64,000 bases of DNA, from contig NZ_JARRAG010000002.1 in the NCBI RefSeq assembly GCF_029589435.1, forward strand, positions 4,650,001-4,714,000. The letters are read 5' to 3'. The notes below the pieces were generated by a model that worked only from the letters and a program-made list of their open reading frames with translations, did not search any database and was not told the origin of the DNA. The position numbers and the translations under genes were made by a program. Numbering within the stretch: the first letter of the stretch is position 1; every line of letters begins with the position of its first letter. Of this stretch, positions 8,684 to 25,244 are shown piece after piece. This DNA comes from Paludisphaera mucosa (lineage in GTDB: Bacteria > Planctomycetota > Planctomycetia > Isosphaerales > Isosphaeraceae).

Positions 8684-11600
8684 TCAGGAGAGCAGGAATT
8701 CGAGGTCGTCGCGGGTCAGGCCGGAGATCATCCGGTTGTCGGCGTTGAGGATGGCGTCGGCCAGGTCGCGCTTCTTCTGCTGGAGTTCGAGGATCTTCTC
8801 CTCGACGGTGTTGCGGCAGATGAGCCGGTAGGCGAAGACGTGCTGGGTCTGGCCGATGCGGTGCGAGCGGTCGATGGCCTGGGCCTCGACGGCGGGGTTC
8901 CACCAGGGGTCCAGCAGGTACACGTACTCGGCGGCCGTCAGGTTCAGGCCCAGGCCGCCGGCCTTCAGGCTGATGAGGAAGATCGGGCAGTCGGGGTCGT
9001 TCTGGAAGCGGTCCACCTTGGCGGCGCGGTTGCGGGTGCGGCCGTCGAGGTACTCGTAGACCAGCTTGTCCTGGTCGAGCCGCTCGCGGACGATCGACAG
9101 GAACGACGTGAACTGCGAGAAGACCAGGACCTTGTGGCCCTCCTCGACGACCTCGGAGAGCGAGGGCAGGAGCAGGTCGAGCTTGGCGCTGGGGCTCGTC
9201 ACCAGGTCCTGGTCGATCAGGCCGGGGTGGCAGGCGGCCTGGCGGAGCCGCAGGAGAGCCTCCAGGACCTCGATCTTGGAGCGGTTCAGCTCGGCGGAGT
9301 CCTTCTTCAGGAGCGCGTCGCGGTAGTGGACGCGGAGCTCGTCGTAGGTCCGCCGCTGCTCGGACTCCATGTCGCAGAAGAGGGTCTGCTCGGTCTTCTC
9401 GGGGAGGTCCTTGACGACCTCGGACTTGGTCCGGCGGAGGATGAACGGCCGCAGGGCCTTGGACAGCAGGACGCGGTCCTCGCCCTCGATGGCCGAGGCG
9501 CCGGCGTAGCGCTTGAAGATGGTGTCGCTGCCGAGCATGCCGGGGTTGAGGAACTCGAGGATCGACCAGAGCTCGCCGATGTGGTTCTCGATGGGCGTGC
9601 CGCTGATGGCCAGGCGGCTGCGGGCGTTCAGCAGCCGGGCCGACTTGGCCGACTGGCTCTCGGCGTTCTTGATCGCCTGGGCCTCGTCGAGGATGACGTA
9701 GTCGAACTCGAACTTCACCAGCTCGGCGATGTCGGTGCGGAGGGTGCCGTAGGTGGTGACGATCAGGTCGTAGTCGTCGAACTTCTCGCGGAACGGGTGC
9801 CGGCCCGGCCCGGTGTAGTCCATGATCCGGAGCCGCGGGGTGAACTTCTCGGCCTCGGCGAGCCAGTTGAAGACGAGCGAGCGGGGGACGACGGCGAGCG
9901 TGGGGCCCTTGGCCTGGCGGCGGAACCGCCGACGCTGGAGCAGGGCCAGCACCTGGATCGTCTTGCCCAGGCCCATGTCGTCGGCGAGGATGCCGCCGAA
10001 GCCGAAGCGCTGGAGGTAGTCGAGCCAGCCCAGGCCCTCGCGCTGGTAGGCGCGGAGCTCGCCGTGGAAGCCCGGCGGCGAGTCGAGCGCGACGACTCCG
10101 TCGAATTGGCGGAGGTTCTTGCGGACGCGGGCGAAGGCCTCGTCGATCTGGATCTCGGGCTGGTTCTCGAGCAGGGCGTCGAGCAGGCCGGCCTGCGAGG
10201 CGTTGAACCGCAGCGCGCCGTTCTCGGCGGCGCCGAGGTCGGCGAGCAGGCCGTACTTCTTGAGCCAGTCCTCCGGGAGCATGCCCATCGAGCCGTCGCC
10301 CAGCTCGATCATGGTGTCGCCGCGCTTGGCGGCGGAGAGCAGCTCGGGGAGGCTGACGCTCTGGCCGCCGTAGTCGACGCCGCCGTCGAGGTCGAACCAG
10401 TCGATCCCGGTGGAGAGGGCCAGCTTGAACTCGCCGGCGGGGCGGATGAGCTTGCCCTCGGCCTCGATCCGCCAGCCGGCCAGGACCAGCTCCTTGGCGA
10501 CGGCGTCCATCCGCTTGGCGGGGAGCTCCAGCGTGTTGGGGTCGAGCCGGGGGTCCTTGGCCTCGCGGAAGCCCAGCTCGAACAGCTTGACGTCGGCGGC
10601 CGACTCGGTGCGGGGGTCGCGGCGGATCACCAGGCCCAGCTCGGTCGAGACGGCCAGGGGCGTCGTCCGGCCGGCGGGGATCACGGCGCCGTCGTAGTCG
10701 AACTCCAGCTCGGCGAGCAGCTTGTCGGCGGCCAGGCCCCAGTTCTGGCGCGGGGTGCGCAGGGTCAGGCTGGGGCGGGGCTTGGCGACGATCTCCTCGA
10801 GCGCCAGCGAGTCGACCAGCTCGACGGCCGGGACCCGGGCCTCGGCCAGGATCCGGCCCAGCATCAGGTCCTGCTGGGGCTCGACGAAGGTGATCTCCTT
10901 CTCGTAGCGGAGCCGGACGATCCAGGTCATGACCCCCAGGTCGTCGAACCGCGCGGCGCGGCCGACGCCCAGGACGAGCAGGCCGGGGAGCAGCACGAGG
11001 GGCTCGGCGAGGTCCATGCGGTTGTCGCCGCGGCGGAGGCCGCCGCGCCACGACCAGCGCTTGCCGCCGGCCTCGGCGCGGATGTCCAGCGCGAACCGCC
11101 AGGGGAGGCCGTCGTCCCAGCGCATGGTGGGGGGCTCGTCCTCGCCGTCGGTGCGGCGGAGCCGGAGCCGGCCGCTGCGCGCCAGGCGCTCGACCAGGGC
11201 CGCCTGGTCCTTGCGGAGGATGAACCGCCGGGTGCCGCGGAGGTCGGCGGCCGCATTGCGATGGGCCCGCGGCGGCGGCGGCGCCTGTCCGGGCCGGGAC
11301 TCGTCGGCCGGCCCTTGGGCGTTGGCGAGGGCCGCGGCGGGGGCGGGGGCGGCGACGCCGTGGTGGGCCTCGTCGAGCAGGGCCAGCAGCAGGCGGTCCT
11401 CGGGGTCGTATTTGACGTGCGCGGCCTTGGGGGCGTACCACCACGGCCGCAGCGGGCCCCACTCGCCGGTCGGCTTGCGCTGGCGGCGGGCGAGGTCGAT
11501 GACGATCTGGTTGTGCGCCTGGGTGGCCGCGACGTCCAGCACGTAGACCAGCAGCCGCTTGGCGTTGCGGTTGACCGCCTTGGGCCCGGCGCGGCCGGCG

Positions 11601-12301
11601 GCGTCGGCCTCGCGGCGGGCCTTGTTGCGCGCGGCGCGGGCCTCGCGGGCGGAGGCGGGGGTCCAGACGCCGCTCGGGCCGTCGGGCGGGGACGGCGGCG
11701 GCGGCCGCTCGCCGTTGCGTTCCCGGGCGCGGGCGGGGGGCGGACGGCGGTCCTTGCCGGTCGCGTTGCGGCCCCGGGCCGGGCGGCTGGGGACCTGCGA
11801 GGCGGGGTGCCGGGGGGCGCCGATGATGACGTCGCGGCCGTAGTCGGGGTTCAGGCCGTTGGGGCCCTCGAGGCCGGGGCCGGGACTGGGGCCCGAGGGC
11901 GGGATCGGCCCAGGACGGGGGCGGTCCTCGCCGGGCTCGACGCCGGGGCCGGGGCTCGGGGCCGAGCCGGGGGCCCGGCGGGGGGGCTCGGCCACCAGCC
12001 GCACGGCCATGTTGGGCGGCGATTGGAGGAAGCCCCGCGAGTCCGCCAGCAGGAGGGTCGCCCAGAGGTGCTTGCAGGGCTCGCCCTGGGGCCCGAAGTA
12101 CGGGCAGGAGCACGTCGCCAGCAGGCGGGCGCCCCGGAGCCGCGCGCGGACCCGGTACTTGGTGGTGCCCCGCACCCGGGCCACCACCTCGTTGGGCTTC
12201 GCCGACATCAGGCTGACGCGGCCCTTCGAGAAATACGACTGGCCTCTCGCGCGGACGGCGTCGCTGAAGTTTCGCGCGACTTTCTGGGCTATCCCCATCA
12301 T
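8684..12301 (-). CDS. SNF2-family DEAD/DEAH-like helicase with SWIM zinc finger
   Basis: About 1205 residues. The N-terminal SWIM zinc finger has the pattern CSCPYFG...PCKHLW (about residues 65-85). After it comes a low-complexity Pro/Gly/Arg linker, a conserved middle domain, then the two RecA lobes from about residue 770. Helicase motifs are DMGLGKT (Walker A), LDEAQ (Walker B), SGTPIENH (III), RRTKSEV, SLKAGGLGLNLT (V) and DRSHRIGQ (VI). Bacterial SNF2 proteins of this type (HepA/RapA-like) translocate on duplex DNA and remodel protein-DNA or transcription complexes. It follows gyrB on the same strand with a 129-base gap. The start is uncertain: ATG at 12301 follows GGGGTGGG, while an in-frame ATG at 12322 has no clear binding site. 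Confidence 0.88.
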   Translation of the reverse strand: MMGIAQKVARNFSDAVRARGQSYFSKGRVSLMSAKPNEVVARVRGTTKYRVRARLRGARLLATCSCPYFGPQGEPCKHLWATLLLADSRGFLQSPPNMAVRLVAEPPRRAPGSAPSPGPGVEPGEDRPRPGPIPPSGPSPGPGLEGPNGLNPDYGRDVIIGAPRHPASQVPSRPARGRNATGKDRRPPPARARERNGERPPPPSPPDGPSGVWTPASAREARAARNKARREADAAGRAGPKAVNRNAKRLLVYVLDVAATQAHNQIVIDLARRQRKPTGEWGPLRPWWYAPKAAHVKYDPEDRLLLALLDEAHHGVAAPAPAAALANAQGPADESRPGQAPPPPRAHRNAAADLRGTRRFILRKDQAALVERLARSGRLRLRRTDGEDEPPTMRWDDGLPWRFALDIRAEAGGKRWSWRGGLRRGDNRMDLAEPLVLLPGLLVLGVGRAARFDDLGVMTWIVRLRYEKEITFVEPQQDLMLGRILAEARVPAVELVDSLALEEIVAKPRPSLTLRTPRQNWGLAADKLLAELEFDYDGAVIPAGRTTPLAVSTELGLVIRRDPRTESAADVKLFELGFREAKDPRLDPNTLELPAKRMDAVAKELVLAGWRIEAEGKLIRPAGEFKLALSTGIDWFDLDGGVDYGGQSVSLPELLSAAKRGDTMIELGDGSMGMLPEDWLKKYGLLADLGAAENGALRFNASQAGLLDALLENQPEIQIDEAFARVRKNLRQFDGVVALDSPPGFHGELRAYQREGLGWLDYLQRFGFGGILADDMGLGKTIQVLALLQRRRFRRQAKGPTLAVVPRSLVFNWLAEAEKFTPRLRIMDYTGPGRHPFREKFDDYDLIVTTYGTLRTDIAELVKFEFDYVILDEAQAIKNAESQSAKSARLLNARSRLAISGTPIENHIGELWSILEFLNPGMLGSDTIFKRYAGASAIEGEDRVLLSKALRPFILRRTKSEVVKDLPEKTEQTLFCDMESEQRRTYDELRVHYRDALLKKDSAELNRSKIEVLEALLRLRQAACHPGLIDQDLVTSPSAKLDLLLPSLSEVVEEGHKVLVFSQFTSFLSIVRERLDQDKLVYEYLDGRTRNRAAKVDRFQNDPDCPIFLISLKAGGLGLNLTAAEYVYLLDPWWNPAVEAQAIDRSHRIGQTQHVFAYRLICRNTVEEKILELQQKKRDLADAILNADNRMISGLTRDDLEFLLS

Positions 12302-12430
12302 CGATACCCACCCCGAACGCATCGACCGGAGGATCGACCCGTCCCCGGAGGGATGCTCCTCTTGAACAGGTTTTCCTCGTCCTCGTTCCCGCTCCCGCCC
12401 GTCGCGCCGCGAGCCGGGCGCGGCCCCGCC

Positions 12431-15235
<2,805 letters not shown>

Positions 15236-15556
15236 TCACGAATCCACCGACCCGATCCGGAACCGCAGGTCCTCGATCTTCGAGCCGGGGCAGGCGTCGC
15301 GGAGGGCCTGGAGCAGCTCCCCCTTGCGGTAGGCGGACAGTTCTTCGAGCAGGGCCGGGTGGTCGACGGTCACGTTCAGCGTCCCGCGGCGGACCTCGCC
15401 CAGGCGGGTCCGGGCCCGGTACGCCTCGCCGACCGCGGCGTCCCAGGCGGCCTGCAGGGCGAGCATCGCGTGGATCCGGCCGTAGCCGCGCAGGGCGAAC
15501 AGCTCGCCGAGCACGTCGGACAGGGGCCGGGGGCCGCGATGTTCGGGGTTGGGCAT
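15236..15556 (-). CDS. dciA: DciA-type (DUF721) replicative helicase-loading factor
   Basis: 106 residues, a single DUF721 domain with the hallmark segment ALQAAWDAAVGEAYRARTR, then LNVTVDHPALLEELSAYRKGELL. Proteins of this family (DciA) load or assist the DnaB replicative helicase in the many bacteria that lack DnaC, and they are typically encoded between recF and gyrB. Here the gene lies between dnaN and gyrB on the same strand, which supports the call. There are 52 bases after dnaN and 243 bases before gyrB. recF is missing from its usual slot. Confidence 0.85.
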   Translation of the reverse strand: MPNPEHRGPRPLSDVLGELFALRGYGRIHAMLALQAAWDAAVGEAYRARTRLGEVRRGTLNVTVDHPALLEELSAYRKGELLQALRDACPGSKIEDLRFRIGSVDS

Positions 15557-15608: not shown

Positions 15609-16727
15609 TCAGCGCTCTCGGGTCAGGGGCATCACGACGTAGGTGTACTGGTCCAGGGTCTTGAACACGGCGGCGTTCTTGGCGTCGATCAGCTCGGCGG
15701 TGATCTCGGCCTCGTCGTCCAGGGTCTTCAGGGCGTCGAGCAAATACCGGGGGTCGAAGGTGATCTCGACGGTCTTACCCTGGTATTCGAGGGGCAGGTC
15801 GACCTGGGCCGAGCCCACGTCGGCGGCCTGGCTCGACAGCTTCAGGGCGCCGGGGCCGAACTGGAAGTCGACGCCCCGGCTCTCGTCGCTGGTGACGATC
15901 GAGGCCTGCTCGACGGCCAGCCGCAGCGGGCCGACGGTCATCGGCACCCGGGTCTCGACGGTCGTGGGGAAGACGTCCTGGTAGCGCGGGAAGCGGCCCT
16001 CGACCAGCCGGCTGTAGATCACGGCGCCCTCGGTCCGCACCAGCACCGCCGCGCCCGACTGGATCGTCAGGTGGACGAGCAGGTCGTCGTCGACGAGGTT
16101 CCGCTCGATCAGCTTGAGCGCCTTGACCGGGATCACGGGCGTCCCCGAGGGCGCGGGCGGGTCGTTCTCGACCTGGGCCGAGGCGACCATCTTCGCCAGC
16201 CGGCGGCCGTCGGTCCCGATCATCGCCATGCCGTCGGGCTTCAGCTCGACGAGGACGCCGCCCAGGGCGTAGCGGGCGCTCTCCAGGTCGGTCGCGAACA
16301 CGGTGCGGCGGATCAGCTTCTTGAGGTCGCCCGCCAGGATCACATGATACCGATCGGCGGCGAAATCGGGAACCTCCGGGTAGAGGCTCGGGTCTTCCAG
16401 GGGGAGCTTGAAGCTCGACCGGGCCCCGCGGACGAGCAGGTGCTCGTCGCCGGTCTCCAGCAGGAGGTCCTGGTCGCCGCTGGTCCTGAGGATCGGGCCG
16501 ATCTTGGCGGTCGGCAGGATCGCCGATCCGGCCTCCTCGACCTTGACCCCGAGCACCCTGTGCCGGATGCCGACCTCGAGGTCGGTCCCCATCAGGACCG
16601 AGCCCTCCTCGGCGTCGACGCTGAGCTTGACGTTCTGCAGGATCGGCTTGGGACTCCGCGCGGGCACGACGCCGCTGACCATGTTGAACGCGGCGAGCAG
16701 TCCTTCGCGATTGCACATAGCCCTCAT
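15609..16727 (-). CDS. dnaN: DNA polymerase III beta subunit (sliding clamp)
   Basis: 372 residues, the expected length for the three-domain clamp. Recognisable stretches are VVPARSPKPILQNV near the N-terminus, MIGTDGRRLA in the middle and YVVMPLTRER at the C-terminus, which matches the conserved VMP[MV]R-like ending of DnaN. The clamp encircles DNA and tethers DNA polymerase III and many repair factors. The ATG at 16727 has GAGG seven bases upstream; an in-frame ATG at 16718 is possible. It is the first gene on the left of the putative origin and is transcribed away from it, with dciA and gyrB following. Confidence 0.95.
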   Translation of the reverse strand: MRAMCNREGLLAAFNMVSGVVPARSPKPILQNVKLSVDAEEGSVLMGTDLEVGIRHRVLGVKVEEAGSAILPTAKIGPILRTSGDQDLLLETGDEHLLVRGARSSFKLPLEDPSLYPEVPDFAADRYHVILAGDLKKLIRRTVFATDLESARYALGGVLVELKPDGMAMIGTDGRRLAKMVASAQVENDPPAPSGTPVIPVKALKLIERNLVDDDLLVHLTIQSGAAVLVRTEGAVIYSRLVEGRFPRYQDVFPTTVETRVPMTVGPLRLAVEQASIVTSDESRGVDFQFGPGALKLSSQAADVGSAQVDLPLEYQGKTVEITFDPRYLLDALKTLDDEAEITAELIDAKNAAVFKTLDQYTYVVMPLTRER

Positions 16728-17158
16728 GCGCGTGCCTCGTTCTGGGACGTTGCGTTGCTCGGCCTCGACCGCTCCCGACGGGCCGAAAGGTTGATGGGCG
16801 GACCGACGTCGGGGGGCTCGCCGGTTCGGGCGGCCGCGGCCTGACGTCGGGCGGGGAAGGGGGGATCGAACCGAGCCGCCCGCGTCCGCTCCCGTCGAAG
16901 GTTCATTCCGGCTCCATCATACCACGACCAGGACCCCGGCGAAGCCCCACGAGCCGGGATTGAAGGACGCGGCGGGACCCCGGGGCGACCTCCCCCCGGA
17001 CACGTCGCGGCAAGCCTCGCGTCGGGGCCGCGGAGGGCGGGCGACGCGTCTCGACCCGGGAAGGGACCCGGTCGGCCGGGGGCGCGACCCGGCGTCTGCC
17101 TGATTGTCATGAGAGAGAAAGCTTCACCGCCGTAATAATCACAGTGCGGCGGACGGGC

Positions 17159-17167
17159 TGTGGATAA
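17159..17167 (-). other. Perfect DnaA box
   Basis: TGTGGATAA on the plus strand, i.e. TTATCCACA on the minus strand: an exact match to the consensus DnaA box, inside the putative oriC. Confidence 0.75.
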
Positions 17168-17361
17168 CTTCGAGGGCGCCCGACGAAGTCCAGCATACCA
17201 AAAGACTTACTCGAACACAACGGCAACCGAGACCTGTTCACAACCCGGTCGACGACTTTGTGGACGACCCGCGCGCCGAGGTTCATGAGGGTGCACGACC
17301 GCCGAACGCCCGGGACGGGGCCTGTGGATCGTCGCCGATTCGGCGCGCGGCCGATCCCGAC

Positions 17362-17370
17362 TTATCCACA
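17362..17370 (+). other. Perfect DnaA box
   Basis: TTATCCACA on the plus strand, exact consensus, about 200 bases from the inverted box at 17159 and in the same gene-free region. Confidence 0.75.
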
Positions 17371-17521
17371 GGTCGTCGACAGGGTGGAAACGGCCCGTCG
17401 AGGCCTCGAAGAATCGGATCTCGGCGGACGGGCGGTCTGCGCCCGAGTCTGGCGGTCCTTTCGACTGCGCCCTCGTGCGGCCCCTTTGGCGATTGCCCGG
17501 ACTGTCGGGCGCGGCCCGGCG

Positions 17522-20500
17522 TCACGGCTTCCGGAGGAGCTTCCTCAGCGAATCGAGGAGGGTCCCGCCGACGGGGCTGCCCCAGCCGGTGGTCATGTCC
17601 CAGCCCGGGTGGGCGTCGTAGCCGAGGTAGGTCGGGATCTGCTTGCCCTCCAGGTCGATGTGGCTGGATACGTTGTCGCCGACGGTGACGTCGTGGGTCG
17701 ACCCGGTCCCCTCCAGCGGGCCGTAGAGCAGCGTGTTGTAGAAGCCGACGTTCCGGCCCAGCAGCTGGTTGATCCGGGCGGCGAGCGCCGACCAGACCGG
17801 GGCGCCGGCGCTGGTGCCGCCGTCGTGGAGGAACTTGCCGCGGGCCCGGATCAGGATGCCGGTCTGCGGATCGGCGATCGAGGCGACGTCCGGGCCGCCG
17901 CGGCCGGTGGGGTGGCCCGGGTCGACGGAGGTCGGGTCCAGGCCGCCGTCGACGCCCGCCTGGTACGAAGGGGTCGCGAAGTGCTGGCTCACGCCGCCGC
18001 CGGTCGAGCCCTTGTCGCCGATCAGGTAGCCGTCCTGGATCGTGTACGTGTCCCAGACGACCTCCTCGTCGATCTGCGCCCCCCGGGCGATCGTGGTGCC
18101 GCCGACCGACGTAACCCAGGGGCTGGCCGAGGGGAACTCCACGTGCGCCAGGCCGTCGGCGATGTGCCGCGAGGAGCCGTAGTCGCCGGCCGACGTGAAG
18201 ACGGAGACCCCCATCGCCGCCGCGTCCAGGAACGCCTGGTTGGCGACGTCGAGGTACATCGACGACAGGTACGGCTCGGGGATGGAGTCGCTGATCGAGA
18301 GGACGTCGATCTTGCGGCCGGCGTCGTGGATCGCCTCCTGGATCGACCGGAAGAAGTCGCCCGGGCCGCCGCCGGCGTAGTAGACGACGATCCTGGCGTC
18401 GGGGACGAGGGCGCCGACGACCTCTACGTCCAGGTAGATCTCGTCGTCGCCCGCCGGCGTCCCCCGGCCGACGGTGGTGATGTCGGGCGTGGGGAGGCCC
18501 AGGTGGTCGAAGTAGGCCCGGAAGTCCTCGCGGGCCGAGGCGTCGATCACGCCCGCGACCTCGATGATCCCGACCGTCTGCCCCGTCCCGGTCGCGTCGG
18601 GGAACTGGTAGCGGTCGGCGACCTGGGCCGGGGTGTAGCCCTCGGTCGTGTCGTCCGCCTGCGCCGCGGGCGTGGAGTCGCCGCCGGTCGAGTCGTCGGG
18701 CCGGGCGACGCTGAAGACGCCCTGGATCACGTCGTGGAGCGCGATCGGCACGCCGATCTCGCCATTGTAGACCCAGGGGCCGTCGGCCGAGCCCTGGCCC
18801 TTGTACAGCTTCCTCCCGAAGGCGTCCTCCAGGTCGGGGACCTTGCCGGAGACGCGGATGAAGCGGGTGCCGAGGTCGACCGAGTCGACCTTGAGGCCCT
18901 GGCCCTCGGCCCATTTCGTCACCGCGGCGACGTCGGCGGGGTCGGCCCCGTACTGCGCGGCGAAGTCCTCGCGCGAGAGGGGCTGGCGCTCGTCGAGCGG
19001 CTTCGCGGCCAGCGATTCGAGCGACGGCCGGCTCGCCGAGTCGGCCCGGCGGCGGACGACGAGCAGGGCGTCGACGACCTCGTCGGCCTTGAGCGCCTTC
19101 AGGTCGGCGTCGGCGGCGACCGTGGGCAGGGCGCTGCCGGCGATCGGCGCGACGGCCGTGGCGTCGGCCTTGATGAGCCGCAGGACGTGGCCGACGTGGT
19201 TGAAGTACCATTCGTTGGGCGTCCCGGGCGCGCCGAAGGGGCGGATCTGGACGCCCTCGGGGACGACGCGGCCGTTCGAGTCGATGTGATCCGGGGTGAT
19301 CCCGGTCGAGTCGATGATCAGGTGCCTGTCCAGGCCGTTCGCGTCCTTGCCGTAGTCGCCCAGCCAGGTGATGGCGTGGGTCGCCTGGGAGCGGTCCTGG
19401 TCGTTCCCGTCGATGATCAGGATGTCGCCCGGCAGGAGCTGGGAGACCAGGTCGTCGTAGCTGGTCCAGTGGTCGATGGTCTGGATGGCTACGCGGTCGG
19501 CCAGCGAGGCGGGGATGACGGTGTTTCCGGGGGTGGAAGCGGAGATGGCCGCCTGGTCGGTGGTCTTGCTGTCGATCGTCACGCCCAGGGCGTCGGCGTA
19601 GGCCCAGGCGGTGAAATTCGTGCAGTCGACCCCCTGGCTCTGGTAGGCGACCGTCGAGGCGACGTTCCACGCGCTCCCCTGCGTGGGCAGCCAGGTCGGG
19701 TCGTAATGATGCTGGTAATCGACGCCGAGCGCGCTCATGTACGCGGCGATCACGCGCTCGCGGAGCCAGTCGTTGGACGCGCCCTGGGGGACGGTCGGCG
19801 GGTCGTTGGCGTTTCGGCCCGGCCCCCAGCCGTCGCCCGAGGGAGCCGAGATGGTGCGGTCCCAGAGCCCCTTGTCGAAGCCCCTGGGCGCGGAGGAGAG
19901 GTCGATGCGGTAGGGGGACGTGTACGTCATCCTGGGATAGGCGACCAGGGCCACGTCCTCGCCCCCGCCGCCGGCGACCCCGCCGCGCCCCTGGAGCGGG
20001 TGGAAGGCCGCCTTGAGTGAGTCGCCGAGGGGCTCGACGTGGAGGTCGTCGGCGGACTTGCTCGGCAAGAGGTCGGCCCCGAACCCCTGGACGACCACCC
20101 GGTCGCCGCCCGTCGAGGCGAAGAAGACGGTCGGCGTGACGGGACCGGGGCTGGTCGCGGCCTTCTCCTTGCCGTCGACGTCCTTTTCCTTGAGCGTGCT
20201 CCGCTGATAGACGTAGCCCGCGCCCATCGGGACGAGCGTCCCCGAGCCCGGCGAGGCGGCCGGCTGGAACGTGCGGGCCTTGCCGTCGGCGTAGGAAACG
20301 ATCGCCGCCCGGCTCGCGCCGCCGCGCGAGGCCAGGCCGGTCACGACGATCGAACCGCCGGCGTTTTCCGACGAGACGACGGCCACGTGGGCCGTGCCCG
20401 AGCGGGCGCTGAAGGGCTTGGTCGTCCAGACCCAGCGGTCGAGCGCGCCGTCGTAGACCGCGACGCGGCCGTCGGCCTTCGAGGCCATCGCGAGGTCGGC

Positions 20501-21163
20501 GACGCCGTCGCCCGTGACGTCGCCGGCGTCCAGGCTGACGCCGTTGCGAGTCGAGATCGGCGAACGGTCGTAGCGCTTCGCCTCGACCCAGCTCGACGTC
20601 CCGACCTGGAACGCGTACGCCCGGACCGTCCGCGCGGGGCCCCCGGTCGCGGCCTGGCCGACGATCAGCTCGTCCTTGCCGTCGCCGTTCACGTCGGCCG
20701 ACGCCAGGTCCAGGCCCCGGGCCCCCTGGAACCCGGCCGGGACGCTCGCGGCCGACAGGACCTGGGCCGTGACCGGCGCGTTGTACGGCGAGGTCGCCTG
20801 GACGCGGAAGCCCCACGCCGCGACGTTCGCACTCCGGGTCGAGGCGACGACCAGCTCGGAGACGCCGTCGCCGTTCAGGTCAGCCAGCACGATCTCGAGC
20901 GGCCCGGCGTTCTTGCCCAGCGGGTTCTCGATCGTGACCAGCGGCAGCGGCGCGTAGCCGGTCGAGGTGTCCGCCGCCCGGCCCCAGCCGCTGTAGATCG
21001 TGACCTTCGTCGAGTTTGCGGCGTGGCCGGCGACGGCGAAGTCGGCGACCTGGTCGCCGTTGACGTCGCCCAGGCTCAGGGCGTCCACGCCGGCGGACAG
21101 GCAGAGCCTCGGTTCCATCGCGTCCAGGGAGGCCTTGAAGCGGGACCGTCGACGCGTCGTCAT
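17522..21163 (-). CDS. Giant secreted fusion: FG-GAP-like repeats, NlpC/P60-like cysteine domain and S53 (sedolisin) serine peptidase
   Basis: 1213 residues. The N-terminus has MEPRLCLSAG, an LEPR-type export signature found in planctomycete secreted proteins. Next come about 400 residues of FG-GAP/VCBS-like repeats (LGDVNGDQVADFAVAG, SADVNGDGKDELIVG, GDVTGDGVADLAMA), which form Ca-binding propellers. A middle domain has Cys514 in VDCTNFTAWAY and a His near 596 (THAITWLGDYG), resembling amidase or NlpC/P60 peptidases. The last 500 residues are an S53 peptidase: a propeptide at about 720-830, catalytic E908 and D912 (EIYLD), and Ser1118 in GGTSAGAP. S53 enzymes are acid-active secreted endopeptidases. 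The ATG at 21163 follows AGAGG; the frame stays open upstream but without that motif. Confidence 0.87.
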   Translation of the reverse strand: MTTRRRSRFKASLDAMEPRLCLSAGVDALSLGDVNGDQVADFAVAGHAANSTKVTIYSGWGRAADTSTGYAPLPLVTIENPLGKNAGPLEIVLADLNGDGVSELVVASTRSANVAAWGFRVQATSPYNAPVTAQVLSAASVPAGFQGARGLDLASADVNGDGKDELIVGQAATGGPARTVRAYAFQVGTSSWVEAKRYDRSPISTRNGVSLDAGDVTGDGVADLAMASKADGRVAVYDGALDRWVWTTKPFSARSGTAHVAVVSSENAGGSIVVTGLASRGGASRAAIVSYADGKARTFQPAASPGSGTLVPMGAGYVYQRSTLKEKDVDGKEKAATSPGPVTPTVFFASTGGDRVVVQGFGADLLPSKSADDLHVEPLGDSLKAAFHPLQGRGGVAGGGGEDVALVAYPRMTYTSPYRIDLSSAPRGFDKGLWDRTISAPSGDGWGPGRNANDPPTVPQGASNDWLRERVIAAYMSALGVDYQHHYDPTWLPTQGSAWNVASTVAYQSQGVDCTNFTAWAYADALGVTIDSKTTDQAAISASTPGNTVIPASLADRVAIQTIDHWTSYDDLVSQLLPGDILIIDGNDQDRSQATHAITWLGDYGKDANGLDRHLIIDSTGITPDHIDSNGRVVPEGVQIRPFGAPGTPNEWYFNHVGHVLRLIKADATAVAPIAGSALPTVAADADLKALKADEVVDALLVVRRRADSASRPSLESLAAKPLDERQPLSREDFAAQYGADPADVAAVTKWAEGQGLKVDSVDLGTRFIRVSGKVPDLEDAFGRKLYKGQGSADGPWVYNGEIGVPIALHDVIQGVFSVARPDDSTGGDSTPAAQADDTTEGYTPAQVADRYQFPDATGTGQTVGIIEVAGVIDASAREDFRAYFDHLGLPTPDITTVGRGTPAGDDEIYLDVEVVGALVPDARIVVYYAGGGPGDFFRSIQEAIHDAGRKIDVLSISDSIPEPYLSSMYLDVANQAFLDAAAMGVSVFTSAGDYGSSRHIADGLAHVEFPSASPWVTSVGGTTIARGAQIDEEVVWDTYTIQDGYLIGDKGSTGGGVSQHFATPSYQAGVDGGLDPTSVDPGHPTGRGGPDVASIADPQTGILIRARGKFLHDGGTSAGAPVWSALAARINQLLGRNVGFYNTLLYGPLEGTGSTHDVTVGDNVSSHIDLEGKQIPTYLGYDAHPGWDMTTGWGSPVGGTLLDSLRKLLRKP

Positions 21164-21364
21164 GGGGTGGATCCTCTGGAGTGGGGCGCGCTCCCCGCGC
21201 CTCATGGATCACCCTAGAACATGAGCCGACGAATGATGCCTCGGGGCCGGAAATTCCCCGGGAGCGGGCCCTCGCGAGCCCCGGCTTGACAGGTCGCCGA
21301 CGATCCCGGATGATCCCGCCGCCCGAGGAGGATGCGCAAGGCGTTGGGGCAAGGAGACTTTGGG

Positions 21365-22945
21365 ATGACGACGAACCCCCAACCCGGCCGTCGGCCGGCG
21401 GCGTGGCTGCTGCTGGTCGGGCCCTGCCTGGTCGCCCTGGGGCCGGGGCTGGGCTCGGGGTCGCGGCTGTCGTATCACGAGGCGTTCGTGGCCCAGGGGG
21501 GCCGCGAGATGCTCGAATCGGGGGATTGGTCGCAGCCCACGATCGGCGGCCGGCCCTGGCTGGAGAAGCCTCCGCTCCCCTTCTGGATGGCCGCCGCCGC
21601 CGGCGCGGTCGCCGGCCGGGTCTCGCCGCTGGCGGCTCGGCTGCCCTCGGCTCTGGCGGCGACGGGCCTGGCGCTGGGCGTCGCGTTCGTGGCGCGGCGG
21701 CGGTTCGGCGGGACGGTCTCGCTGCTGGCCGGCGCCGTGCAGGCCACGACGGCCTGGGCCGTGCTCCGGGGCCGGCTGGCCGAGGCCGACGTCACGCTCG
21801 CCTGCCTCTTCGTCTGGACGATGGCCGCCTTCGACCGCATCCGCGAGACGGACGACGCCGACGGCGACGAATCCGACCCCCGCCGTCGCGCGGCCTGGCG
21901 GTGGGCCTTCTTCGCCCTGCTCGGGACGACGTCGCTGGCGAAGGGGATCGGCTTCGGCGCGGCCCTGATCGCGGCGGCGGCGGGCGGGACTCTCGCCTGG
22001 GACCGCCGTCCCGGGTCGTGGCGGCGTTTCGCCTTCCCGGCCGGCTGGCTCGTCGCGGCGGCCCTGGCGCTCGCCTGGCCGCTGGCGATGCTGCGCCAGC
22101 ACGGGGCGGGGGCGGCGTCGCTCTGGCTGATGCACGTCGCCGACCGCTTCGGGCCGAGGACCGGCCACGGCGTCTTCGCGGGCGAGACGCCCGGCGCGTA
22201 CGCCGTCGACCTGCTGAGCCAGGGCCTCCCCTGGACGCCCTTCGCGATCCTCGGCGCCTGGCGGTCGCTGCGGCGACGCTCGGCCGGCGACCGCCTGCTC
22301 GCGGCCTGGGCCATCCTGCCGCTGGTTTTGGTCTCGATCCCCGGCGGCCGCAACGGGCACTACGCGATCTACGCCATGATCCCCTGGTCGATCTGGGCGG
22401 CGATCTCCCTGGAGGCGCTGGGGGATCGGCTGGTCCTGATGGGACGGCGCCCCGCGCGGGTGCGGCGGCTGGCCTTCGCGACGTTCGCCGGCCTGGCGGC
22501 GGCCTACGGGCTGGGCTTCGGCCTGGTCGCGCCCATGCTGGAGCGACGGGGCGCCGAGCCGGACTTTTACGAGCGCATCGCCCCCATGATCCGGCCCGAC
22601 GAGCCGCTCGTCCTGCTCTACGACGACTGGGACCGCGACCCCTATCCGACTCCCTTCGGGCCGATCCCCCACGACCTCGCCGTGCGGCTGTACTACCTCG
22701 GGCGGCCCGCGACGTGGGTCGTCGGCGAGCCGTCCGGCGCGACGCCGGCCACCCCCTCGATCGCCGTGCTCGGCCGCGACCGCGACCTCCCCGCGCTCGC
22801 CGAGGCCGGCGACGTCGAGCCGCTGGCCCGCGGCCCCTCCGCTCGCTGGGACCGAACGTTCCGCCTCTTTCGCCTGCGTCCGAACCGGCCCGAATCGGCG
22901 GTGGCCGCCTACACGACCAGCTTCCAGACGTCGCGCACGAAGTAG
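21365..22945 (+). CDS. GT39/ArnT-like membrane glycosyltransferase
   Basis: 526 residues with about ten or more hydrophobic helices. The first extracytoplasmic loop contains SYHEAFVAQGGREML followed by GGRPWLEKPPLPFW, a signature of the GT-C PMT/ArnT-like family. Such enzymes transfer sugars from polyprenyl-phosphate donors to lipid or protein acceptors on the outer face of the membrane. The acidic pair usually found in that loop is here HE, not DE. The C-terminal soluble part is of unknown role. ATG 21365 has AAGGAG eight bases upstream, so I preferred it to the ATG at 21332. The 3' end overlaps the convergent HNH gene by 37 bases. Confidence 0.82.
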   Translation: MTTNPQPGRRPAAWLLLVGPCLVALGPGLGSGSRLSYHEAFVAQGGREMLESGDWSQPTIGGRPWLEKPPLPFWMAAAAGAVAGRVSPLAARLPSALAATGLALGVAFVARRRFGGTVSLLAGAVQATTAWAVLRGRLAEADVTLACLFVWTMAAFDRIRETDDADGDESDPRRRAAWRWAFFALLGTTSLAKGIGFGAALIAAAAGGTLAWDRRPGSWRRFAFPAGWLVAAALALAWPLAMLRQHGAGAASLWLMHVADRFGPRTGHGVFAGETPGAYAVDLLSQGLPWTPFAILGAWRSLRRRSAGDRLLAAWAILPLVLVSIPGGRNGHYAIYAMIPWSIWAAISLEALGDRLVLMGRRPARVRRLAFATFAGLAAAYGLGFGLVAPMLERRGAEPDFYERIAPMIRPDEPLVLLYDDWDRDPYPTPFGPIPHDLAVRLYYLGRPATWVVGEPSGATPATPSIAVLGRDRDLPALAEAGDVEPLARGPSARWDRTFRLFRLRPNRPESAVAAYTTSFQTSRTK

Positions 22946-23754
22946 CGGCACATCCCCGCGAACTCGGCGTCGGGGGCGGTCATGGCCCGGACCTGGGCAC
23001 TGATCCGATCGAGCATGAGGCCCTCGAACTTCCCCGAGTCGAGGACGAGGCGGAACGTCTCCAGGTCCGCGTACTTCCGGTATCGGAGCCCGAGGAGCTC
23101 GTCCCGGTTCAGGCCGAGGCATCGCTCGGCCGCTTCGAACACCCTTCGCGAGGCCGCGCGCCTCGGGTGCCGAGGCGCGATCGCCACCCGGCGCTGGATC
23201 GGGTCGGCGACCCATTTGAAGAGCGACTCGGGATCGTCCACGTAGGGGTCGACGAGCCCGGCCTTCTCCCGCGCGGCCGCCCGGAGGAACTCGGCCCTGG
23301 GACGGCCCGCGGCGTCGTCGAGGGGGTCTGGGGCGAGCCTCGCGGCGATCGCCCGCCGCTCCACTTCCGTCAGGCCGAGGGCCTCCGCGGGGATGGGCGG
23401 GCACGTCATGGCCGGGCCGTGGACGGGGAACTGGTCGGACTTGTAGGCCTGGTTGCAGATCTGGCAGGCGAACACGTAGTTCTCGTAGCAGTACGCGAGC
23501 CACCAGTAGCGGCTCTTGGGCCGGAAGTGCTCCACGTCGCCGTAGGCCACGACGTCCGTCGAGGCCTCGCAATAGGCGCACTTGCCGGCGGACTCGGCCC
23601 TGAGCTGGTCCTTGACGACCTTCCACGAGTCCAGGAACCGGGCGTCGTCCCGCAGGTGGCCGTCCAGCAGCGCCAGCATCTTGGCGACGCGGAGCGGGCC
23701 CCGGAAGCCGGGGTGGATGCGCCCGGCCGATCGATCGCGCGCGAGCCGGATCAC
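22909..23754 (-). CDS. PtuB-like HNH endonuclease of a Septu-type defence pair
   Basis: 281 residues. The HNH zinc-finger nuclease core is intact: C59-x2-C62 (CAYC), the EHFRPKS segment with H76, the downstream Asn in ENYVFACQIC, and C97-x2-C100 followed by N101 and K105 (CQICNQAYK). This arrangement is typical of the HNH proteins (TIGR02646-like) that pair with AAA ATPases in Septu systems and in retron Ec78-type systems. It would cut nucleic acid when released or activated by its ATPase partner. The start is GTG, 25 bases downstream of the ptuA-like stop, so the two are co-transcribed. No reverse transcriptase lies nearby, which argues against a retron. Confidence 0.77.
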   Translation of the reverse strand: MIRLARDRSAGRIHPGFRGPLRVAKMLALLDGHLRDDARFLDSWKVVKDQLRAESAGKCAYCEASTDVVAYGDVEHFRPKSRYWWLAYCYENYVFACQICNQAYKSDQFPVHGPAMTCPPIPAEALGLTEVERRAIAARLAPDPLDDAAGRPRAEFLRAAAREKAGLVDPYVDDPESLFKWVADPIQRRVAIAPRHPRRAASRRVFEAAERCLGLNRDELLGLRYRKYADLETFRLVLDSGKFEGLMLDRISAQVRAMTAPDAEFAGMCRYFVRDVWKLVV

Positions 23755-23779: not shown

Positions 23780-25135
23780 TCACGACTTGCCGGGGCGAGG
23801 CTTGGTCTTGGCCTTGGTCCCGGGCGGCTTCGTCGCCGCGCCGCGCTTCGGCCGTCCCTCGCGGCCGGGCTTCCGATCGACGTCGTCGCGCAAGGCCAGG
23901 CGGATGTCTTCCAGCAGCTCGCGTCGCTGGGCCTCTTCGGGCTTCGCCGCGTCCCAGTCGGGCAGGGCGAGCAGTTCGCGTTCGAGCTCGGGCAGGCGGG
24001 CCCGCTCGGCCGTGGTGAGGCGGTTCCGCGGCTTGTCGCGGAGGCCCTGGAACTCCGCCCGCGTCTGTTCGACCGACCGCGAGTCGGCCGTCTCCAGGCC
24101 GAAGATCGGGCTGATGAGCAGCTGGTGGAGCATCAACTTGCGGGGCTCGCCCTCGAAGGCGTGGAGCGTCGGGGGGGCGTGCTCGGCGTCCCGCTTCAGG
24201 ACGAACAGCTCCCCCGGGCCCGCCTGGTGCACGGTCAGGGCCGAGTGGGTGGTGGCCAGGATCTGGAAGTTCGGCAGCTTGGACGACAGGTAGTCGACGA
24301 GCCGGCGCTTCCAGACCGGGTGGAGGTGCAGGTCCATCTCGTCGATCAGGAGCAGGCCGCGGGCCGACAGGGGGTTCTTGTAATCCTCGAAGATCCGGAG
24401 GATCCGGTAGAGGAGGTCGCCGCACCAGCCGGCCGCGTTCTGGTAGCCGTCGCTGAGCTGGTCGAGCGGGAGCACGCCGTCGGGAGTCCGGAAGAGGAGC
24501 TTCCTCGCCGACTTGTCGATCCGCTCGAACGAGACGTCCGGCAGCAGGTCGTCCAGGGTTGAGCGGACGATCTTCAGCCCTTCCTCGCCCCGCTCGTAGT
24601 CGAGGGCGATCGCCCAGGTTTCGAGGGGGCTCAGCGTCGCGTCGTTCGAGAACATCGTCGCCACCGACCGCGACCGGGGATGGGTGAAGACCTCCGACGA
24701 CGACCCGCCCGGGTCGCCCAGGCGTCGCGAGACCCCGTAGCCGACGACCAGGTAGTTCCGCGCCGCGTGGGCCAGAGCGCGGTCCAGGCGGTCGAGCGAC
24801 TCTTTGTTGTCCTCGAAGATCCGGCGGATGTGGTCGCCCCGCTTCAGGCTCAGCTCGACGTGGCGGGTCTCGCCTTCGGCCGTGACGAGGTCGGCGGCCA
24901 TCCGGCAGCGGTCGGCCTTCAGCCGGATCCACGAATCCGGGTCGCCGATCAGCTCGGGGAGGGCCTCGCTGCCGGCCAGCAGCAGGGCGACCGCCTTCAG
25001 CACGGTGCTCTTGCCGCAGCCGTTCTGCCCCAGCATCAACGTCCACTTGCGGACGGGGGCGTCCACGGCGGCGAACGACAGGTCGAGCGACTCGATCGCC
25101 CGCACGTTCTCCAGGACGAGGCGCTGCAGGAACAT
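23780..25135 (-). CDS. PtuA-like AAA/ABC-type ATPase of a Septu-type defence pair
   Basis: 451 residues. The protein has an SMC/ABC-type nucleotide fold: Walker A GQNGCGKST (residues 36-44), the signature-like QLSDGYQN, Walker B LLLIDEMDLHLHP and the H-loop ATTHSA. The N-terminus FLQRLVLENVRAIESLDLSF is typical of OLD/RecF/PtuA-like ATPases. There is no TOPRIM domain, so it is not an OLD nuclease. The C-terminus is Lys/Arg/Pro-rich. In Septu systems the PtuA ATPase forms oligomers that hold the PtuB nuclease. I chose ATG 25135 because homology begins there; upstream in-frame starts give an Arg-rich tail unlike this family. Confidence 0.78.
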   Translation of the reverse strand: MFLQRLVLENVRAIESLDLSFAAVDAPVRKWTLMLGQNGCGKSTVLKAVALLLAGSEALPELIGDPDSWIRLKADRCRMAADLVTAEGETRHVELSLKRGDHIRRIFEDNKESLDRLDRALAHAARNYLVVGYGVSRRLGDPGGSSSEVFTHPRSRSVATMFSNDATLSPLETWAIALDYERGEEGLKIVRSTLDDLLPDVSFERIDKSARKLLFRTPDGVLPLDQLSDGYQNAAGWCGDLLYRILRIFEDYKNPLSARGLLLIDEMDLHLHPVWKRRLVDYLSSKLPNFQILATTHSALTVHQAGPGELFVLKRDAEHAPPTLHAFEGEPRKLMLHQLLISPIFGLETADSRSVEQTRAEFQGLRDKPRNRLTTAERARLPELERELLALPDWDAAKPEEAQRRELLEDIRLALRDDVDRKPGREGRPKRGAATKPPGTKAKTKPRPGKS

Positions 25136-25244
25136 CGCCCATGACCCCGTGAGGATTCCGAACGGCGGCCGTCGCCGGAGCCGGCCCGGCCGCACGATCG
25201 TCACTCTAACATCCCCCGCCGCGACGGGCGAGCCGCGGGCCGGA

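Follow-up and report, generated by a model that had tools for sequence, protein, structure and literature searches.

The gap between dnaN and a peptidase-like gene in the window, by which we mean the whole stretch of 64,000 nucleotides analysed here, is probably a chromosomal replication origin (oriC) that descended from a dnaA-dnaN intergenic origin and is served by a DnaA protein encoded far away. An origin is the best reading of the gap because its DnaA boxes are uniquely clustered and their spacing is conserved in relatives. On these grounds the original prediction of a likely origin next to dnaN is partly supported; GC skew, by which it was to be checked, spoke clearly neither for nor against it. 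Two attributes of an oriC were found, namely a box cluster beyond chance and a DnaA initiator encoded in the genome.

The gap upstream of dnaN and its neighbours

The features of the locus are the following (positions in the window).

12431-15073, minus strand: gyrB (Pfam and NCBIfam)
15236-15556, minus strand: dciA, helicase operator (Pfam; no NCBIfam match)
15609-16727, minus strand: dnaN, sliding clamp (Pfam and NCBIfam)
16728-17521, no strand: proposed oriC, the gap that separates dnaN from the peptidase-like gene, upstream of dnaN-dciA-gyrB
17101-17158, no strand: candidate unwinding region beside box B, made up of an AT-richer pocket and the AT core
17127-17152: AT core with CCGCCG/CGGCGG flanks, parted from box B by a GC-rich spacer
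17159-17167, minus strand: perfect DnaA box B, word TTATCCACA, starting 42 bp past the start of the 18-mer
17192-17221, minus strand: promoter-like element facing dnaN (TTG, 17 bp, TATGCT), including the conserved 18-mer at 17192-17209
17233-17241: GTGAACAGG stretch (islands read on the dnaN strand)
17259-17267, minus strand: weak DnaA box, two mismatches, with a GTCCAC island kept in the genus
17323-17331, minus strand: weak DnaA box, two mismatches; most genus members have a GATCCACA-type island here
17362-17370, plus strand: second perfect DnaA box, word TTATCCACA, in the orientation opposite to box B
17522-21205, minus strand: peptidase-like gene reading toward the gap (Pfam)

Two perfect DnaA boxes in opposite orientation had been predicted in the gap, and both were found; the two near matches claimed beside them are real, yet weak. 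The AT-richer pockets were also present, at 17101-17145 (42% GC) and 17186-17215 (40% GC), in a gap of 70% GC and a window of 71.5% GC in which only 0.2-0.3% of positions are as low. Boxes with at most one mismatch numbered three in the window, a count reached in 11 of 100 shuffles and thus not unusual. What is unusual in the gap is the exactness and the clustering of the boxes, not the number of near-consensus ones. The 8,211,357 bases of the genome (nine contigs) hold three perfect boxes, two of them in the gap, 203 bp apart; the reversed control word occurred four times in the same search. When 80 stretches plus the window were scanned (1,654,000 bases in total), the gap was the top box cluster, with a weighted score of 14 against 6 for the next best.

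A strict sigma-70 consensus scan found no promoter at the promoter-like element, and a hairpin around the AT core was no better than in shuffles (z -0.79). DnaA-trios were searched with the rule as given in excerpts of PMC8287927 and with a strand convention that is our own reading; in its permissive form the rule was satisfied at box B in four of the six genus members and at any position in 12 of 30 loci, and DnaA-trios at this locus are not convincing. A second promoter-like sequence, GTCGTGGTATGATG, lies at 16915-16928 (minus strand), about 190 bp upstream of dnaN, and is conserved in five of the six genus members. An ORF at 16724-17110 (minus strand) was considered as a gene within the gap, for which conservation gave no support.

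As predicted, dnaN, dciA and gyrB run away from the gap, all on the minus strand and with identities backed by Pfam, and the gene across the gap is peptidase-like and not dnaA, as judged by a pro-kumamolisin activation domain and FG-GAP repeats. According to excerpts of PMC5109545, many phyla, Planctomycetes among them, have dciA within the dnaA-dnaN-recF-gyrB locus or close to it. The absence of dnaA from the locus was borne out by a genome search that returned a single dnaA, outside the window. That of recF between dnaN and gyrB held as well, and no RecF match reached the cut-off genome-wide: the single match at E<=0.001 scored 28.8 bits against a cut-off of 172. This match, the ATPase at 23780-25204, was rejected as a recF remnant, its match to Septu PtuA being far better. 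No recF was found at E<=1e-12 in any of the 45 family genomes, with 27-36 candidates scored per genome, so that recF is undetected in the family, its absence being unproven. Compared with the canonical dnaA-dnaN-recF-gyrB locus, this one has dnaN and gyrB together and lacks both an adjacent dnaA and recF.

The same ATPase (minus strand) stands beside a PtuB-like nuclease at 22909-23754 (minus strand), and the two resemble a Septu-type anti-phage pair (PADLOC E of 3e-121 for the PtuA-like and 4e-32 for the PtuB-like protein), about 5 kb from the proposed origin. On the other side, gyrB is adjoined by a large SNF2-family helicase with a SWIM zinc finger (8684-12322, minus strand), which resembles the defence helicases DpdE and ZorD, possibly through the shared helicase domain only.

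Conservation of the cassette and lineages that do not fit

When up to 900 bases upstream of dnaN were aligned for the six members of the genus, conserved islands emerged inside a gap that otherwise aligns poorly. The perfect inverted box pair recurred with a spacing of 203-204 bp in five of the six members; the remaining one (G028) carries two perfect direct boxes plus an inverted box with one mismatch. The distance from the start of the 18-mer to the start of box B was 42 bp in all six. Relatives in the family keep a rigid order of a DnaA box, the promoter-like 18-mer, a second box 42 bp on and an AT-richer stretch. Among 30 dnaN loci of the family, searched as whole loci, a perfect box was present in 14, and 27 had one or more boxes with no more than one mismatch. 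The 30 full-length dnaA loci, some of them cut by contig ends, held no perfect box, and one-mismatch boxes were found in five.

The 18-mer could be placed in 26 of the 30 dnaN loci with at most six mismatches, and a cassette profile was built from these 26 (L030 and L034-L036 were left out). It gave a single strong match (E<=1e-10), located just upstream of dnaN, in 27 of the 45 family genomes; 26 of these matches are the training sequences themselves and G015 is the only one from outside. Weaker matches (E from 4e-7 to 2e-3) were obtained in six genomes (G025, G039-G042 and G044, the last without a dnaN match) and matches at E 0.02 to 0.3 in six more, and none at E<=1 was returned for G004, G012, G013, G027, G035 and G036. 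Loci from named records, which are largely of the same species, reached at least 43 bits in 21 of 32 cases. The cassette was rejected for the other families of the class, where only chance-level matches appeared, in eight of 15 genomes.

Several lineages of the family depart from this pattern. Genus g20 carries one to three copies of the 18-mer upstream of dnaN, perfect in G039, and the three loci read (L213-L215) lack any box at one mismatch or fewer. In L213, which belongs to G039, a repeat of 891 bp upstream of dnaN duplicates the 18-mer and also bears two small ORFs, toxin-antitoxin-like by eye. Neither boxes nor the 18-mer were found at the dnaN of G012, whose whole genome gave no match at E<=1 to the cassette profile under strict filters. 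No box with at most one mismatch occurred within 1 kb upstream of dnaN in L237-L240, L242, L243, L245 and L246, nor in the 547 bases upstream of dnaN in L220; L236 was cut off in this search. L245 and L220 matched the cassette profile despite the absence of boxes. Since the 18-mer is present without boxes in some lineages, the two are separable, and the 18-mer is best seen as a putative dnaN promoter. In some lineages of the family the origin would have diverged or moved. Three of the loci above (L237, L238 and L239) are titled Candidatus Kuenenia stuttgartiensis and have an Isosphaeraceae-like dnaN (57-58% identity); two of them share dnaN coordinates with the family genomes G033 and G036, and the titles look wrong.

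A distant initiator and short DnaA copies

The only dnaA match in the genome lies at C2:4883573-4884931 (plus strand), about 216 kb from the gap, and its 375 bits against a cut-off of 343.9 establish that the initiator is encoded in the genome. Its N-terminal domain scored 19.2 bits, under the Pfam cut-off of 24.6, and the Pfam scan of three short or dnaN-linked DnaA copies reported no N-terminal domain. The usual DNA-binding signature of DnaA is RDHTTV. The full-length DnaA reads RNHSTVMSA, and the dnaN-linked DnaA of L246 reads RDHTTVLYA at the position where the short copy of L242, which retains the ATPase and DNA-binding domains, has RDTKAIRHA.

One of the DnaA searches used a profile built from 24 of 30 DnaA loci. 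Outside the class, 113 of 132 genomes have a DnaA among the matches listed, and by a count made by eye 85 of these have their best DnaA no farther than about 3 kb from dnaN and 28 do not; as the listing is ordered by score, it favours strong DnaA matches (38 of the first 40 are dnaN-linked). Three of the 28 have no dnaN match, many have dnaA and dnaN on separate contigs, and in one (G189) a second DnaA adjoins dnaN. In 11 of 15 genomes from other families of the class, dnaN is adjoined by a short DnaA, which matches the DnaA profile from about position 112 on; in one of these (G158) the adjacency is deduced across the record start. The short DnaA is not the neighbour of dnaN in G062, G143, G168 and G178. 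A full-length DnaA was found beside dnaN in none of the 15, and its place varies.

Six genomes of the family (G004, G011, G026, G034, G037 and G038) have a short DnaA at 3-26 kb from dnaN; in the remaining genomes that have one, it is more distant or sits on another contig. No short DnaA was detected at E<=1e-3 in any of the six members of the genus, nor in G005, G006, G022, G024 and G035, some of which are incomplete assemblies. The original prediction described the standard gene order as broken. This is right in that dnaA and recF are not at the locus, but the wording needs refining because the short DnaA still adjoins dnaN in other families of the class; what happened here is likely to have been the displacement and loss of that short copy.

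The boxes with their rarity, clustering and conserved spacing, the one distant dnaA and the synteny in relatives are shown directly; DnaA binding, unwinding, a replication start, control of dnaN and the order of events are inferred. The full-length DnaA encoded 216 kb away would occupy both strong boxes as well as the weak ones, build up in the direction of the AT-richer stretch next to box B, at about 17101-17158, and open it, and helicase loading, aided by DciA, would follow. DnaA binding might also tune dnaN-dciA-gyrB, as the promoter-like element facing dnaN suggests, and the gap probably also controls dnaN. We further propose, tentatively and with somewhat less than even confidence, a succession of initiators at a fixed origin, by which the distant full-length paralogue now runs the old origin in the genus. 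The former dnaN-adjacent dnaA would have been cut to an ATPase and DNA-binding form, parted from dnaN and finally lost in the genus. Its stages would be a dnaN-adjacent DnaA losing its N-terminal part in the class, drifting away in Isosphaeraceae, where the copy read (L242) has a changed DNA-binding signature, and vanishing in the genus. If this history is true, the origin has persisted beyond the loss of its own initiator gene and the stages can be seen in present-day relatives, so that a single class offers stages of initiator replacement at a fixed origin, and the roles of the DnaA N-terminal domain and of dnaA-oriC linkage become testable.

In the Bacillus subtilis type of chromosome, oriC lies in the dnaA-dnaN intergenic region. 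Excerpts of PMC7709395 report that Ca. Kuenenia stuttgartiensis, a member of the same phylum, has three dnaA genes and that cumulative GC skew put its origin at the one next to dnaN and gyrB. The gap shares with these two the DnaA boxes, the AT-richer stretch upstream of dnaN and the nearby gyrB; unlike them, it has no dnaA at the locus, a promoter-like 18-mer between the boxes and no convincing DnaA-trios. Origins unlinked from dnaA are known in Escherichia coli, Caulobacter and cyanobacteria. The proposed origin resembles these in the distance of its initiator gene and differs in that dnaN-dciA-gyrB remain at the gap and relatives retain a short DnaA beside dnaN.

GC skew and competing readings of the gap

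The expected skew minimum at the gap could be neither upheld nor dismissed. In the genome of the window, sampled as 80 stretches (1.59 Mb) plus the window and analysed both raw and strand-corrected at third codon positions, skew was very weak; the best cuts fell between 4.52 and 4.64 Mb, with a permutation p=0.22 that is short of significance. A rough negative-to-positive drift at about 4.1-4.65 Mb, to which no significance value is attached, appeared when words polarised in G012 were applied to this genome. G012 itself (40 stretches) showed strong but rearranged skew, with negative-to-positive switches near 2.45 and 4.55 Mb that coincide with neither dnaA (position 259) nor dnaN (3.095 Mb). 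In 18 cassette-bearing relatives, skew to the right of the gap minus that to the left was 0.031 +- 0.014 against the background of each locus, with a p of 0.005 versus 68 orientation-matched centres that treats related species as independent, which they are not. Taken alone, the right-side skew was not positive, at -0.024 +- 0.010; the left-right difference past gyrB was 0.022 +- 0.025. A sign change seen with a fixed background was discarded, as only the left-right difference was left with the locus-own background.

The main rival sees in the gap no more than a promoter of dnaN-dciA-gyrB under DnaA control and places the origin elsewhere, unrecognised. DnaA-regulated promoters exist, that of E. 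coli dnaA being an example, and the gap is like them in that a conserved promoter-like element has DnaA boxes on both flanks; genus g20, with its 18-mer and no boxes, and a skew that does not clearly mark an origin here, are in keeping with this reading. We consider it unlikely, though it deserves to be taken seriously, since the boxes and conserved islands of the genus extend about 150 bp past the element, no second box cluster was found in the 1.654 Mb sampled, the dnaA flanks lack a perfect box, and a locus of this type is the origin in the distant relative Ca. Kuenenia according to excerpts of PMC7709395.

Far less probable is an origin adjoining the distant dnaA, which would make the boxes upstream of dnaN a relic or a site of DnaA titration. 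Several family records do begin at dnaA, though by convention, and against such an origin stand the lack of perfect boxes at all 30 dnaA loci, the lack of a clear skew switch at the dnaA of G012, and a full-length dnaA that is variable in place and unseen beside dnaN in the 15 genomes of other families. That the box pair is a functionless coincidence, as a one-mismatch count within shuffles might allow, has next to no chance of being right and is already refuted by conservation, the exact pair and its spacing having been kept in five of six genus members within a poorly alignable gap.

With the gap thus read as the probable oriC, its position also bears on how genomes of the family are used. 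Our literature search, at the level of search results, returned no study of origins in Isosphaeraceae and none on this locus, and the main text of PMC5352709, a comparison of four Isosphaeraceae, mentions neither dnaA nor dnaN. Contigs of five genomes (G011, G012, G031, G037 and G040) start less than 800 bases from the full-length dnaA, and a contig of G001 opens with the short DnaA; such starts suggest that the records were rotated to a conventional point and not to the likely origin. The likely origin at dnaN and the record start at dnaA are 70 kb apart in G011 and 150 kb apart in Singulisphaera acidiphila, and records that start at dnaA, away from the likely origin, would bias skew plots, coverage-based growth-rate estimates and gene-dosage work.
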